Made by a program: the position numbers and the translations under genes. A stretch of 64,000 nucleotides of DNA, from assembly GCA_019694755.1 (NCBI GenBank), contig JAIBBI010000002.1:1-64000 (forward strand). The letters are read 5' to 3'. Source of the DNA: Gemmataceae bacterium (GTDB taxonomy: Bacteria > Planctomycetota > Planctomycetia > Gemmatales > Gemmataceae). The stretch's first letter is position 1; every line of letters begins with the position of its first letter. The notes beneath the pieces are model-generated. The model worked only from the letters and a program-made list of their open reading frames with translations, had not been told where the DNA came from and searched no databases. Below are positions 3,719 through 10,821 of this stretch, one piece after another.

Positions 3719-4956
3719 CGCTGCGCGGTGTGGCACGCGTCCATGATCCGGCCATTCTCATCGAGCGCGAGATGGAACCGGTCGTCGCCTTGAAGGCGAT
3801 GGATCGAGACTTGATAATCCCGGCCCACGACGGCCATGTGCGGCATCTTTTCCGGCTTGCCTGGCGTCCTCAGCCGGCCCCACGATCCGTCGCCCAGATA
3901 CACCACGCCGTTGTCGTGGGCGTGGCCGCCGAGCAGCGCCTTGGTCCGCTTGAACGTATGGTCATGGTGTTCCAGCACGACCGGCACGCGGTACTTCTCG
4001 TAGAGCGGCACCCAGTGTTTCCGCTGCTCCTCACCCGTACCGGTCTTGTTAATCACGGTCGGGTCCATCTTGCGAAACGACGGATAGGCCGGGACGTGGC
4101 CGGCGACGATGACGTGCGGCCGCTCGACGCGGGCCCGCAGCGTCTGCTCCAGCCAGTCGGTCTGCTCGCCCGCGATCTTGCTCGTGTGTCCGGTGTCGAG
4201 CATCACCAGGCTGAGGTAATCGCCGAAGTCGAGGCAGTTGTAGCCAACCTCGGGGAACAGCCCGTCGAAGAGTGCATAGAAGAACGGGGCCTTGGAGCGC
4301 GGCTTGCCGTAGCCGCCGTCCACCTCGTGATTGCCAAGACAGGCGATGAGCGGGATCAGCCGGCCGTCGCGGGTGATCATGTGCCGGGAGTATTGGCGGA
4401 GAAACGCCAGGCTGACCTCGACCGACCGGCCGTTGTCGTACCCGAGGTCGCCGCCGATGAAGCAGAACGCGGGGTCCTGCTTCGCCGCGGAGATGTTGTT
4501 GGCGACGGCATGGGCGTTGATGCCGACATCGCCGCCGGTGACGAACTGGATCGCGTTCGTCGCCTTCGCCGGCATGGTCTTGAACTTCCAGGTCGGCGAC
4601 GACTTGCCGATCTTGAACCGGTACTCGGACCCCGGCGTGAGATCGGTCAGCTCGCAGCGGAAAATCTGGAGGTCGGTAAGCGGGTACGGCCGGGTTGAGG
4701 TCAGGGCCCCGTCGAATTCCTCGTCTCCGGCCTCGGCATAGTAGACGTTGGTGTCGGCCGTCTCGCCCTTGGCGCCGACCCACTGGATCACCATTGTCGT
4801 GGTCGGATCGCGGTGCCAGGTGAGGAAGAGCGTCGCCGGCTGGAAGGCGGCATCCTCGACGTGCTTGGCGGGCTCGGGACCCTTGTCCTGCCCGAGAACA
4901 TGGGCCGCCGAAAGGCCGAGCATCGATGTGCCGAGAAACGCGCGGCGCGAGAACAT
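3688..4956 (-). CDS. Tat-exported purple-acid-phosphatase-like metallophosphoesterase
   Basis: 422 residues. The ATG at 4956 has GGAG eight bases upstream and starts a twin-arginine signal ('SRRAFLGTSMLGLSAA'). An N-terminal fibronectin-like domain ('TTTMVIQWVG', 'LTDLTPGSEYRFKIG') precedes the calcineurin-like core with 'GGDVG', 'FIGGDLGYDNG', 'CLGNHEVDGG', 'VAGHVPAY' and 'LEHHDHTFKR', which supply the usual dinuclear-metal ligands. The domain order matches purple acid phosphatase-like enzymes. The substrate is unknown; a phosphate-ester hydrolase outside the cytoplasm is the best reading. It is convergent with the preceding secreted protein gene. Confidence 0.88.
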   Translation of the reverse strand: MFSRRAFLGTSMLGLSAAHVLGQDKGPEPAKHVEDAAFQPATLFLTWHRDPTTTMVIQWVGAKGETADTNVYYAEAGDEEFDGALTSTRPYPLTDLQIFRCELTDLTPGSEYRFKIGKSSPTWKFKTMPAKATNAIQFVTGGDVGINAHAVANNISAAKQDPAFCFIGGDLGYDNGRSVEVSLAFLRQYSRHMITRDGRLIPLIACLGNHEVDGGYGKPRSKAPFFYALFDGLFPEVGYNCLDFGDYLSLVMLDTGHTSKIAGEQTDWLEQTLRARVERPHVIVAGHVPAYPSFRKMDPTVINKTGTGEEQRKHWVPLYEKYRVPVVLEHHDHTFKRTKALLGGHAHDNGVVYLGDGSWGRLRTPGKPEKMPHMAVVGRDYQVSIHRLQGDDRFHLALDENGRIMDACHTAQRKRGAVLVSG

Positions 4957-5109
4957 GAGACGTGCTCCGGACACGGTGGGATAACCGTATTGTCCGGCAT
5001 CGACGGCCGCAGGTCGAATGAAAGCAGCATGAAATTCCGACGCCCGGGGCCACGCCGGTCCGGTCGTGCGGGGTATCATGCCGGCCGGGGGCGTGATATC
5101 ATTTCATCA

Positions 5110-5433
5110 ATGAGTGTCTCGATTCCCGTGAATACGACTATGCAGCCGAACAGCCCGTTTGATCCGATGAAGCCCGCCTACGATCGCCTTCGGGCGCTGG
5201 GCGTACTTCGACTCGCGCTGTTCGGGTCGGCCGTCCGCGGCGAACTGACACCTGCCAGTGATATCGATGTTCTGATTCGACTCGGCAACGTGACCTTCGA
5301 CCGGTACTTCGGGGTCAAAGAATCACTCGAGGGCGCGTTTGGCCGGAGAGTCGACCTCGTAATGGAAAACACAATCAAGCCGCAACTGCGTGACCGAATC
5401 CTGGCGGAGGCCATCGATGCCCCGGGATTCTGA
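5110..5433 (+). CDS. MNT-type nucleotidyltransferase domain protein
   Basis: 107 residues with the minimal nucleotidyltransferase signature: 'LALFGSAVRGE' (GSxxR) followed by 'SDIDVLI' (DxD) and a later 'RVDLVME' third acidic position. Such proteins usually pair with a HEPN protein as a toxin-antitoxin module in which the MNT protein AMPylates HEPN. No HEPN-like ORF follows within 500 bp, so this looks like an orphan. The ATG at 5110 is the longest; a start at 'MQPNSP' or 'MKPAYD' would also keep the whole domain. Confidence 0.8.
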   Translation: MSVSIPVNTTMQPNSPFDPMKPAYDRLRALGVLRLALFGSAVRGELTPASDIDVLIRLGNVTFDRYFGVKESLEGAFGRRVDLVMENTIKPQLRDRILAEAIDAPGF

Positions 5434-7244: not shown

Positions 7245-7488
7245 TTCGCGTCTCCGGAATGGCCCACAGGGCAGCGCCCCACAGACTGCGTAACACGGCC
7301 AAGCCACGGTCAGGCGGGAACGGGTCGAGTCATCAGAAGCGCATTGTTAATCCGACTTTTCGCGGCTACCGCTTGCTGTTAGTTTATGACCTGAAAGCAC
7401 CGAAATGCCGACAGATCTGGTGCCGGGCCCGGAATGAAGCGGCTTAGGTTTGGGGGTGAATACTCGGGGCATTGATGGGCCATTCTCC

Positions 7489-8550
7489 TCATGCCGCCTC
7501 GGTGGCCGCGTCGCGCATCGCCACCAGTACGTCGGCGAGTTGGGGCACCTCGTTGGTCTCGTACGCCTGATTCAGTCCGATCCCGGGCACGTGCTTGCCG
7601 AACAGCACCCGCGGCTTGGCGATCAGGTCGTAGAAGAGTTCTTCGATCACCCTGCGCAGCAGGTGCTCGCCGAAATTGGTCACCTCGGTGTCCTCATTCA
7701 CGACGAGGAACCGGCCCGTCTTCAAGATGCTGTCGCGGATCAGCGGCCAGTCGTACGGGAACAGGCTGCGCAGGTCGATCACGTCGAACGTCAGCCCCTG
7801 CTCGGCGGCCAGTTGGTCGGCCGCCTGCGTACAGAGCGGCAACATCCGGCCGTAGCTGACCACCGTGGCGTGCGTGCCCTCGCGGACGCGGTTGCCCTGA
7901 CCCAGCGGTACGAAGTACGGCTTCACGTCGGGCCATTTCGGGGTCCAGGCCGCGCGGGCCGCACCGACCGGTGCGTCGATCATCTCCTTCAACTCGTCTT
8001 CGTTCTCGGGCTCCCCGGGGATCTGCTGCTCGCCGCGGACGCGGAGCAGCGCCTTGGGCAGCAGTACCATGACCGGGTTCGGGTCGAGAATGGCCGAGAG
8101 CATCAGGCCGTAGGCGTCGAGCGCTGTCGACGGCATGACGATCTTCCAGCCGGCCAGGCGCGTCGCCCAACCTTCGAAAGAGTGCGAGTGATACAGACTG
8201 CCGCGGATGCCGCTGCCCGAAGGGGTCATCAGCACGATGGGCATGGGGAACTGGCCCGCACCGCTCCAGCGCTGGTTGCCGGCGACCTTCATCAGGTCGA
8301 TGATGTTGAACCCGTAGTCGCAGAACTGGATCTCGCAGACCGGCCGGCCCCCGGCGTAAGCGATGCCCATGGCCGTGCCGATGATTCCGCGCTCATCGAG
8401 CGGCGAGTTCCACGCCGTCTTGAGCCCCTGCGTGGCGGTAAACACCCCACCCAGCGGCGGCCCGACATCTTCGCCGAACACATCGGTCACGCCCAGATGC
8501 TCCTCCCCGTAGTGGAGAGCGAGGCGGACAGCCTGAACGAGAGTAGCCAT
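7489..8550 (-). CDS. 2-oxoacid dehydrogenase E1 component, beta subunit
   Basis: 353 residues. Transketolase-like pyrimidine-binding domain ('DVFGEDVGPPLGGVFTAT', 'GTAMGIAYAGGRPVCEIQF') and C-terminal transketolase domain ('VVSYGRMLPLC', 'DVIDLRSLFPYDW'). With the alpha subunit it forms the thiamine-diphosphate E1 that decarboxylates a 2-oxoacid and acylates the lipoyl group of E2. The start ATG at 8550 has no Shine-Dalgarno: directly upstream is the AT-rich repeat bordering the four-helix-bundle gene. A 244-bp gap separates it from E2, with nothing recognisable in it. Confidence 0.93.
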   Translation of the reverse strand: MATLVQAVRLALHYGEEHLGVTDVFGEDVGPPLGGVFTATQGLKTAWNSPLDERGIIGTAMGIAYAGGRPVCEIQFCDYGFNIIDLMKVAGNQRWSGAGQFPMPIVLMTPSGSGIRGSLYHSHSFEGWATRLAGWKIVMPSTALDAYGLMLSAILDPNPVMVLLPKALLRVRGEQQIPGEPENEDELKEMIDAPVGAARAAWTPKWPDVKPYFVPLGQGNRVREGTHATVVSYGRMLPLCTQAADQLAAEQGLTFDVIDLRSLFPYDWPLIRDSILKTGRFLVVNEDTEVTNFGEHLLRRVIEELFYDLIAKPRVLFGKHVPGIGLNQAYETNEVPQLADVLVAMRDAATEAA

Positions 8551-8552
8551 AG

Positions 8553-8586
8553 AGTTAAAAGTTCAAAGTGAAAAGTTCAAAGTTAA
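8553..8586. repeat. Left repeat of the four-helix-bundle cassette
   Basis: An AT-rich stretch unlike the surroundings, built of a 14-mer (aaaagttcaaagtg) repeated in tandem with one change. It is an imperfect inverted copy of 9033-9066. The stop codon of the four-helix-bundle gene (8585-8583) lies inside it and the E1-beta start is 3 bp beyond it. Confidence 0.75.
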
Positions 8587-8993
8587 GAATCGCTCGGTTG
8601 AACCACCGCGGGCGGGGGTTGAGGTCGCCGACAGGTTCGGACGATCGCGCCGAGGATGTTGGTGACGGATTGCGCTTCCGTGAGCAAGTCACTCACCGCA
8701 CTCGACTCGACGAGTCCCGAGTCCCCGAGCAGTCGCAACCAGTAAACCGTCTCGCGAGCCTCTTTGAGCGCGATCGTCATCTTGCTGGCGAAGTCTTTAC
8801 GGCTCTGCCCGGCCTGCGCTTCCTGGACGTTCGCCCCGACGGACGTTCCTGATCGCAGCAGTTGGCGAATGATGGGACCGCGAGTCTGGTTTCCCGCTTC
8901 GAGCCGGCTGCAGAAGCGGACGATCGCCACCGCGAAGGCGTATGATCGGGCCGAAATGTCCGGCTTGGTCGGGCGCGGGCCGTCACTCTGCAT
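8583..8993 (-). CDS. Four-helix-bundle protein (S23/IVS-protein family)
   Basis: 136 residues from the ATG at 8993, preceded by GTGAGG; a TTG at 9038 would add 15 residues. The pattern 'ARSYAFAVAIVRFC', 'RQLLRSGTSVGANVQEAQAG', 'DFASKMTIALKEARETVYWLRLL' is that of the four-helix-bundle family first seen in intervening sequences of 23S rRNA genes and related to Avd accessory proteins of diversity-generating retroelements. The family is thought to bind nucleic acid. The gene lies between the two E1 subunit genes and is bracketed by inverted AT-rich repeats, so I read it as an insertion. Confidence 0.88.
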   Translation of the reverse strand: MQSDGPRPTKPDISARSYAFAVAIVRFCSRLEAGNQTRGPIIRQLLRSGTSVGANVQEAQAGQSRKDFASKMTIALKEARETVYWLRLLGDSGLVESSAVSDLLTEAQSVTNILGAIVRTCRRPQPPPAVVQPSDS

Positions 8994-9032
8994 TCGCCTC
9001 ACGCCCCTGAGCCAGACTCCGAACCTCGCACT

Positions 9033-9066
9033 CTTCAACTTTTAACTTTGCACTTTTAACTGTCAA
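9033..9066. repeat. Right repeat of the four-helix-bundle cassette
   Basis: An imperfect inverted partner of 8553-8586: read on the minus strand it gives agttaaaagtgcaaagttaa against agttaaaagttcaaagtgaa on the plus strand at the left end. It abuts the stop codon of E1-alpha at 9067. Confidence 0.75.
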
Positions 9067-10146
9067 CTACGCCGGTAATCCCGTGTAGTCTTCCGGGTAC
9101 ACGCTATCGACCGGACTTGGTGCGTAGGTGTGGGTGTAGACGTCGGCGGCTGTCGGCCGGGGTTCGGTGTGCACTTGGCGGACGGCTTCTTCGATCTCGT
9201 TGATCGCCTCGGTGTGCACGCGCTCGATCTCTTCCTTCGTCATCAGCTCGCGGTCGAGGAGTTTCTTCTCGAACATCGCGACGCAGTCGTCCTCGTCCGG
9301 CACGCGAGCCGCACCGGAGGACGACGAGTGCCCGTGCAACCGGCTGACGCGGGCCTCGATCATGTACGGCTTGCGGCGCGTCCGGCAGTGGCGGAAGCCC
9401 CGGCTCAGCGCGTGCCAACTTGCGATCGGGTCATTCCCGTCGACGACTTCGCCCGGGATGCCGAACGCCTTACCGCGGTCGACGATGCTCTTTTCCGCGT
9501 GCTGCGTTTCCGAGGCGGTGCTGATGCCCCAGCCGTTGTTGGTGACGAGGATGAGCACGGGCAGCTCAAAGCCGGGCCGGCTCGACCAGATCATGCAGCT
9601 TGCGAAATCGCCTTCGTGCGTGCCGGCATCGCCGCCGATCACGGCCGTCACGCCGTCGCCGCCCGAGCGCTTCTGCATGAGCGCGGTGCCGGGAGCCATG
9701 ACGTATTGCACCTCGATCACGGAGGTGACCGGAATGACGTTCCAGTCTCGCTTGGAGTAATGGCAGACGAAGTTGCGACCCATCGAGTGCGGGTCGGTGA
9801 GTGTCATGGCCATCTGGCGGACGTGGTCGAGTACGGGCATGCCCATTCCGAGCAGCACGCCGGGGTTGCGGTAGTGGAGGTGGACGTAGTCGTAGGCAGG
9901 GCCTTCGCCCCTGCGGAGCTGCATCCCGAGGCAGGTGTTAAACGCTTCTTCGCCGGGGCCGCCCACCCAGAAGTAGGCCTCGCCGGACTTCGACATCTTG
10001 ATGCACCGCTCTTCCAGCCGACGGCAACGGACCATCAGACGGTGTAACTCCCGGCAGCGGGCGGCGGGGAGCATTTCGTCGCGGCTCCAAAGTTCCGCCG
10101 GGGGCGCGAGCGTGGCCGCCGTCGGACCGCGGAACGCGGTTGGCAT
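9067..10146 (-). CDS. 2-oxoacid dehydrogenase E1 component, alpha subunit
   Basis: 359 residues from the ATG at 10146, which has GGAGG seven bases upstream and is preferred over a TTG six bases earlier. The thiamine-diphosphate motif is clear ('GGDAGTHEGDFASC' to 'VTNNGWGIST'), as are the family elements 'RCRRLEERCIKMSKSGE' and 'RVSRLHGHSSSSGA'. It pairs with E1-beta to decarboxylate a 2-oxoacid. As first gene of the E1-alpha, E1-beta, E2 set it probably carries the operon promoter, but the operon is now interrupted by the four-helix-bundle cassette. Confidence 0.93.
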   Translation of the reverse strand: MPTAFRGPTAATLAPPAELWSRDEMLPAARCRELHRLMVRCRRLEERCIKMSKSGEAYFWVGGPGEEAFNTCLGMQLRRGEGPAYDYVHLHYRNPGVLLGMGMPVLDHVRQMAMTLTDPHSMGRNFVCHYSKRDWNVIPVTSVIEVQYVMAPGTALMQKRSGGDGVTAVIGGDAGTHEGDFASCMIWSSRPGFELPVLILVTNNGWGISTASETQHAEKSIVDRGKAFGIPGEVVDGNDPIASWHALSRGFRHCRTRRKPYMIEARVSRLHGHSSSSGAARVPDEDDCVAMFEKKLLDRELMTKEEIERVHTEAINEIEEAVRQVHTEPRPTAADVYTHTYAPSPVDSVYPEDYTGLPA

Positions 10147-10251
10147 CGACAATCCTCCACGGGGCGAACGGCGGTCGAGGGGCGACCGCCACAGTCGGGG
10201 CGGGATGCGGGCGTCTGGAAGATTGTACGCCGGGAATCGCCCGGCGGGAGG

Positions 10252-10821
10252 TCAATTCCCGGCCAATCGAGCCCGCCCGAGAACCGCATATTCTGGTCCA
10301 TCGGGCCGCAACTCGCTCGACATCACTCGAATTTCCCGGACTTTCGTTTCGCCGCCCTCCCATGCCGCGAATTTCACGAGCGCGGGGATCAATTCCGGGT
10401 CCGGTTCGCCCTGCACCCGGCCCAAAGTGACGTGAGGAGTGAACGCACGTTCCTCCCTTTGATAAAGGCCCAGGTCCTCCAATGCGGTTTCGAGTTGTCC
10501 GTGGAGCGCCGTCAACTCCTCGGCCCCCTCGCCGACCCGGGCGATGAGCGTCCGCGGGCGGCGCGGCGTCGGAAACGCCCCGACCCCTGTCAAAGTGAAG
10601 GAAAACGGTGGACGGGCACGGGCCACCTGCTCCACCGCCCGGCAGACCTTTACCACGTCGCGGTCCACCGTCTCGCCCAGGAAGACCAGCGTGCAATGGA
10701 AATTGGCCGGATCGACCCAGCGCACGCCCTGCGTTCGCGGCCCAAACTGATCCTGGAGGCCACGCAGACGATCCCGGGTGAAAGGAGCGACATCGATCGC
10801 GACAAACATGCGGTATCTCAT
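10252..10821 (-). CDS. thpR: RNA 2',3'-cyclic phosphodiesterase
   Basis: 189 residues, a normal length for the LigT/ThpR branch of the 2H phosphoesterase superfamily. Both catalytic His motifs are present: 'HCTLVFLG' near residue 42 and 'HVTLGRV' near residue 132. The enzyme hydrolyses RNA 2',3'-cyclic phosphates to 2'-phosphates in the cytoplasm. It reads toward the dehydrogenase genes, with 105 bp before E1-alpha, so co-transcription is possible but not required. Confidence 0.92.
   Translation of the reverse strand: MRYRMFVAIDVAPFTRDRLRGLQDQFGPRTQGVRWVDPANFHCTLVFLGETVDRDVVKVCRAVEQVARARPPFSFTLTGVGAFPTPRRPRTLIARVGEGAEELTALHGQLETALEDLGLYQREERAFTPHVTLGRVQGEPDPELIPALVKFAAWEGGETKVREIRVMSSELRPDGPEYAVLGRARLAGN

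Follow-up and report, generated by a model that had tools for sequence, protein, structure and literature searches.

The locus considered here raises the question of why a four-helix-bundle gene bordered by inverted repeats should lie between E1-alpha and E1-beta, the two subunit genes of one enzyme, in a Gemmataceae bacterium. An original prediction, made from the letters of the window alone (the whole stretch of 64,000 nucleotides that was analysed), held that this cassette might be a small mobile unit with no transposase. The order of Pfam domains across the junction (E1_dh, 23S_rRNA_IVP and then the transketolase domains) agrees with the gene order that had been proposed, and both inverted repeats are found where they had been placed (Table 1). 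We refer to the protein between them as the IVP.

Table 1. The split E1 operon of the window, with the IVP gene and its two flanking arms.
Feature	Position	Strand	Description
E1-beta (transketolase-type)	7489-8550	minus	Host gene, downstream side of split operon; PF02779 + PF02780
Left arm	about 8551-8590		3' of IVP gene; AGAGTTA AAAGTTC AAAGTGA AAAGTTC AAAGTTA AGAA; inverted relative to right arm
IVP gene	8583-9038	minus	Carried by element; 151-codon ORF; PF05635 (23S_rRNA_IVP / four-helix bundle, Avd-like); conserved domain 8649-8957
Right arm	9031-9066		5' of IVP gene; read inward TTGACAGTTAAAAGTGCAAAGTTAAAAGTTGAAG
E1-alpha (dehydrogenase E1 component)	9067-10152	minus	Host gene, upstream side of split operon; PF00676, 152 bits

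The repeats had been described as sequences of about 34 bp, and they are indeed inverted and imperfect. Rather than being a unique 34-bp sequence, however, each is a tandem array in which a 7-mer, AAAGTTN in the inward direction, is imperfectly repeated about five times, the two arms being mutually inverted. Four matches of the AAAGTTCAAAGT type (with at most one mismatch) are present in the window against a chance expectation of 0.06, and all four lie in the two arms. The fit to the host genes is as close as had been proposed: the right arm directly adjoins the E1-alpha stop codon, 2-3 bp separate the left arm from the E1-beta ATG, and the stop codon of the IVP gene (TAA) is inside the left arm. 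Its TTG start at 9038 is inside the right arm, with an internal ATG near 8993 as an alternative start. The unit sits in sense orientation within the operon gap, and no ORF besides that of the IVP lies between the arms. E1-beta does have no Shine-Dalgarno sequence upstream, which is weak evidence for the suggestion that its leader had been replaced. Direct target-site duplications are absent from the window and rnpB junctions. A scan for sigma-70-type sites found no promoter-like site in 7400-10300, terminator and Rfam scans returned nothing in or near the element (nor any Rfam match in the window), and a search of phage records gave no match.

To our knowledge, all that is known of the role of PF05635 (‘four helix bundle protein’ or ‘S23’), a large and widespread family, is its resemblance to Avd, a known pentamer. 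The window IVP scores 70.8 bits against this profile, where the cut-off is 33.8, and has no other Pfam match. Its AlphaFold model (pLDDT 86) is a predicted four-helix bundle that is nearest to the stand-alone IVP structures 2RLD and 2GSC, and then to Avd of a Bordetella phage DGR (4DWL; TM about 0.6 by query and 0.8 by target). No catalytic domain was found in the IVP element. Five chains are present in two solved IVP structures (Lin 2006, as cited in PMC10053308).

The window is one case of a general rule. Its genome has five PF05635 genes, every one between inverted arrays and each with its own unit: AAAGTTN in the window and, at the others, GGTCGGA, the 8-mer GGTGACAN, a TTTCCGC-like unit and GATTTGC. 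The idea that the window's repeats might flank other four-helix-bundle genes was therefore right as to inverted 7/8-mer arrays and wrong as to their sequence, which differs each time. Beyond this genome, we examined 74 planctomycete IVP loci, from the window's genome and its relatives, and 80 named loci from Bacteroidota, Acidobacteriota, Chloroflexota, Nitrospirota, Myxococcota, Verrucomicrobiota, an archaeon, CPR and others, the latter sample favouring one IVP subfamily because its members are the top matches to a single peptide pattern. The genomes are mostly drafts or MAGs. Under one scoring scheme with a fixed threshold (score 28), matching inverted arrays flank 104 of 150 IVP genes sampled from more than 10 phyla (69%) compared with 11 of 275 neighbouring genes (4%), whose flanks are likewise intergenic. 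At the same score, arrays were detected at 51/77 named loci versus 3/431 shifted windows of these loci, and at 56/73 planctomycete loci versus 5/277 shifted windows. The best period was 7 in 37 and 8 in 12 of the 51 named loci, and 7 in 46 and 8 in 5 of the 56 planctomycete loci, with a median arm length of 4.7 units (IQR 4-5.9). The true share is probably above 69%, since several sub-threshold loci show arrays by eye (L192, L231, L243 and L237, the last being a Sphaerospermopsis locus with GGGGACT arrays). Inverted arrays, with units mostly of 7 nt, also surround six of six cyanobacterial plasmid IVPs examined. The association of IVP genes with inverted arrays is thus well shown, and among open-licence PMC papers we found no published account of a general link between heptamer arrays and PF05635.

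The arrays are diverse in sequence, 77 of 91 dominant 7-mers being distinct. When units are folded on their period and read inward, a hidden motif common to them emerges, A-R-T-N-N-T-N, with an information content of 2.87 bits versus 2.22 (sd 0.05) for a null of permuted positions. Most arms are poor in C on the strand read inward, with G exceeding C in 102 of 123. We tested the relation between 7-mer and IVP by pairwise comparison of loci. For cross-phylum pairs with IVP identity of at least 50%, repeat similarity is 0.25 versus a null of 0.199 (sd 0.007) obtained by shuffling arms within phyla, and 0 of 500 shuffles reached the observed value. Pairs that are non-syntenic, having no flanking-gene similarity, give 0.258 against a background of 0.172, and 0.385 when IVP identity is at least 60%. 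Within one genome, IVPs that differ in sequence differ in repeat. As an out-of-sample check, plasmids were searched with the IVP of Flavobacterium ichthyis, which has TTAGCTG arms; the two best matches were cyanobacterial IVPs (66% and 61% identity) with TTAGCTG/TTAGCTT arms, and matches at 43-47% identity had other units. These comparisons show that the 7-mer goes with the type of protein and not with host or site, similar IVPs sharing it at unrelated sites and even in different phyla.

Inverted pairs of the same units are also found without a gene. In the window's genome, AAAGTTN pairs of this kind occupy the P12 loop of RNase P RNA, the tRNA-Ile/tRNA-Ala spacer of an rRNA operon, and a position immediately upstream of a fabD-like start codon; 23 nt of the unit order of the right arm recur at G000:C191. 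Matches to the AAAGTTN pattern number 13 in this genome; G032 has 9 to a related form, and other genomes have few. When RNase P RNAs are aligned, independent inserts are seen in the P12 loop in G000, G003, G012 and G045 (L151, L152, L155 and L158), which represent four genera. Each insert is an inverted pair of 7-mers, and the 7-mers differ; other RNase P RNAs carry no insert. The 7-mer of the insert is that of an IVP of the same genome in G000 and G003, and nearly so (6 of 7 letters) in G012.

Counts in 59 relatives extend this pattern. The two genomes that encode a GGGATGA IVP have 70 and 26 arrays of this unit, whereas each of the remaining 57 has 0-3 (hypergeometric p 0.0006), with gene-less pairs present in G009 and G031. 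In 20 gene-less GGGATGA copies, the arms are near-constant and the spacers are unrelated to each other. Arrays of AGTKTTC number 265, 42 and 25 in three genomes with the matching IVP type, and are also present in G010 (165), G056 (54) and G009 (13). No PF05635 match was found in G010 and G056, which may have lost the IVP, may be missing a contig or may harbour another driver. The original prediction had counted repeats without any such gene as evidence against itself; such repeats do exist, but they are gene-less derivatives and cluster in genomes that encode a matching IVP. Judged by comparison of the genome sequences, gene-less inverted pairs of a 7-mer abound almost only where the matching IVP is encoded. 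At one locus (L127; G000:C53, near 1400-1520), the arrays on the two sides of a gap do not match, GGTGACAG units facing AAAGTTN units, which could reflect recombination between two types of element.

Comparison of the E1 junction with that of near relatives, which had been proposed as a way to find an empty site, shows no IVP unit in most of about 28, where the two genes are separated by 6-180 bp or by other sequence. Two of these relatives do have an IVP unit, with AAAATGC arms (G033) and GGAAAAA-type arms (G019), and a tree of the E1-junction IVPs from three genera does not reject a single ancestral insertion (monophyly, AU p 0.24). At L064 and L070, long palindromes that show no heptamer periodicity fill the same gap in other relatives. 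Of 150 Flavobacterium species, about 44 carry an IVP unit in one particular gap and about 100 lack it, and both arms change together there, CAAAGGTT or CTAAGGTT, along with IVP type. We rejected this site as a clean filled/empty pair. In most of the inspected gaps with no standard IVP there is a hairpin or an array in decay, and in one (L325, G171) there is an IVP from a different subfamily, its arms being of the AAACTTTAAACAACCTT type, which argues for a hotspot. On cyanobacterial plasmids, two IVP units interrupt cas6-cas4 and one separates the genes for the two ribonucleotide reductase subunits; these units, all with heptamer arms, are those of Pseudanabaena (L348), Anabaena sp. 90 (L352, where the split CRISPR operon is type I-D by annotation) and Nostoc edaphicum (L353). 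Orientation is strongly skewed: 54 named and 35 planctomycete units are sense to both neighbours, compared with 3 and 4, respectively, that are antisense to both.

We consider it probable that an IVP and its inverted 7-mer arrays together constitute a small selfish DNA element. The proposal of a mobile unit that lacks a transposase is supported by the absence of the unit from the same junction in most relatives, the recurrence of similar units at unrelated sites and in other phyla, and the gene-less copies elsewhere in the genome, a distribution that suggests mobility. We envisage that an IVP pentamer would bind its own 7-mer arrays as DNA, in the form of a single-stranded hairpin or a duplex and perhaps with about one 7-mer unit per IVP subunit, and would bring about the copying of the DNA between two inverted arrays into new sites. 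For the chemistry of transposition we infer a borrowed source, in which host replication or repair enzymes would carry out the copying. Insertion would be favoured in RNA-gene loops and in the spacers that separate co-transcribed genes. The IVP gene would ride within the full element, and short gene-less versions would spread in trans, by analogy with REPs and RAYT or MITEs and their transposase. Expression of the IVP would be driven by the host operon, which could account for the bias towards the sense orientation, given the scan for promoter-like sites at the window locus. Some observations, among them the lack of a catalytic domain and of a target-site duplication, speak against a selfish element. 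The unrelated spacers of gene-less copies are odd for plain transposition, and G010 and G056 contain AGTKTTC arrays with no PF05635 match. We saw no recent duplicate of an IVP-bearing copy within one genome. It is quite possible, if short of probable, that these elements form a new class of mobile DNA with neither transposase nor reverse transcriptase, in which an Avd-like pentamer recognises private arrays and causes copying into RNA-gene loops and operon gaps, and that much of the bacterial heptamer load, including cyanobacterial STRRs, is its gene-less progeny.

Other explanations must be weighed against a selfish DNA element. The unit could be an intervening sequence in mRNA, with arms that pair in the transcript and a stem that RNase III cuts, as in 23S rRNA IVSs. 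In the IVS of Coxiella, a PF05635-type ORF (S23/IVP) lies in sense between complementary ends, with tandem GACAGAT heptamers, there at the 5' end (PMC4990558). Such sequences likewise insert into RNA loops, the rnpB insertions described above lengthen a loop, the bias towards sense orientation is in keeping with an RNA-level role, and RNA of the element is predicted to fold somewhat more stably than shuffled versions of it (z -2.1). However, arm mismatches have no G-U bias in sense RNA (108 versus 116, p 0.64, 123 loci), which indicates that the arms behave as DNA sites and that it is not their pairing as RNA that has been conserved. Most copies lie outside rRNA, and the window element lies in a protein operon, between E1-alpha and E1-beta, rather than in a 23S helix. 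Its arms, unlike those of 23S rRNA IVSs, are protein-specific 7-mer arrays with dispersed gene-less derivatives and no sign of selection for RNA pairing. We therefore regard an RNA-level intervening sequence as unlikely. That the IVP is a host DNA-binding regulator, with dispersed arrays that are its regulatory sites and are not mobile, would fit the covariation of protein and repeat as well as the scatter of gene-less arrays through the genome. It is quite unlikely in view of arrays in the RNase P RNA loop, the tRNA spacer of an rRNA operon and unrelated operon gaps, and of related units at non-homologous sites and in other phyla.

A retro-element, in which the IVP would be an Avd-like cofactor and a trans-acting reverse transcriptase would copy the sense RNA, is suggested by the fold, which resembles that of Avd in the DGR RNP structures 8UB7/8UBE, by the sense orientation of the units and by probable homology, Avd and PF05635 being regarded as homologous (PMC10053308). 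In contrast with a DGR, the IVP element encodes no reverse transcriptase and apparently lacks both a template repeat and a variable repeat. The window's genome, at 97% complete, has no RVT_1 match yet five IVP genes, and reverse transcriptases are as common with an IVP (20/31) as without one (18/28), which makes this account improbable. There is very little to recommend host slippage repeats of the STRR type, among which IVP genes would lie by chance or through a shared intergenic preference. Tandem 7-mers are known in many genomes with no gene association (PMC4679880), but this cannot readily explain the excess of arrays at IVP genes over neighbouring genes, the matched inverted orientation or the protein-specific 7-mers.

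With a selfish DNA element still the preferred reading, the closest known systems each share part of its organisation. REP/REPIN sequences and RAYT (TnpA-REP) resemble it in having many short palindromic gene-less copies where a matching single gene is present. RAYT is an HUH Y1 transposase and REPs are single hairpins rather than tandem 7-mer arrays, whereas the IVP is a non-enzymatic-looking four-helix bundle that itself matches PF05635 only. As in MITE-like systems, gene-less copies with the same terminal repeats share a genome with the full unit (AAAGTTN and GGGATGA), but the IVP element lacks both a transposase between its arms and a target-site duplication. Cyanobacterial STRRs are also intergenic tandem heptamers and, in cyanobacteria, are found flanking IVP genes; here, by contrast, the heptamers are the inverted ends of IVP units. 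We know of no description of STRRs that includes a partner gene. An STRR heptanucleotide insertion in a cyanobacterial RNase P RNA gene was reportedly described by Vioque in 1997.

By tying PF05635 to its own 7-mer arrays, these results give the family a testable function, namely sequence-specific repeat binding. They also offer a possible origin for the heptamer arrays known for decades from cyanobacteria and other organisms, and link these arrays to 23S rRNA IVSs. They further give a name to a putative mobile element that splits operons, among them those for PDH, type I-D cas, ribonucleotide reductase and conjugation genes, and its recurrence across many phyla points to a widespread and little-recognised kind of mobile DNA. 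Elsewhere in the window, the C-terminal part of an ORF at 4813-5433 on the plus strand reads like a minimal nucleotidyltransferase (MNT) domain.
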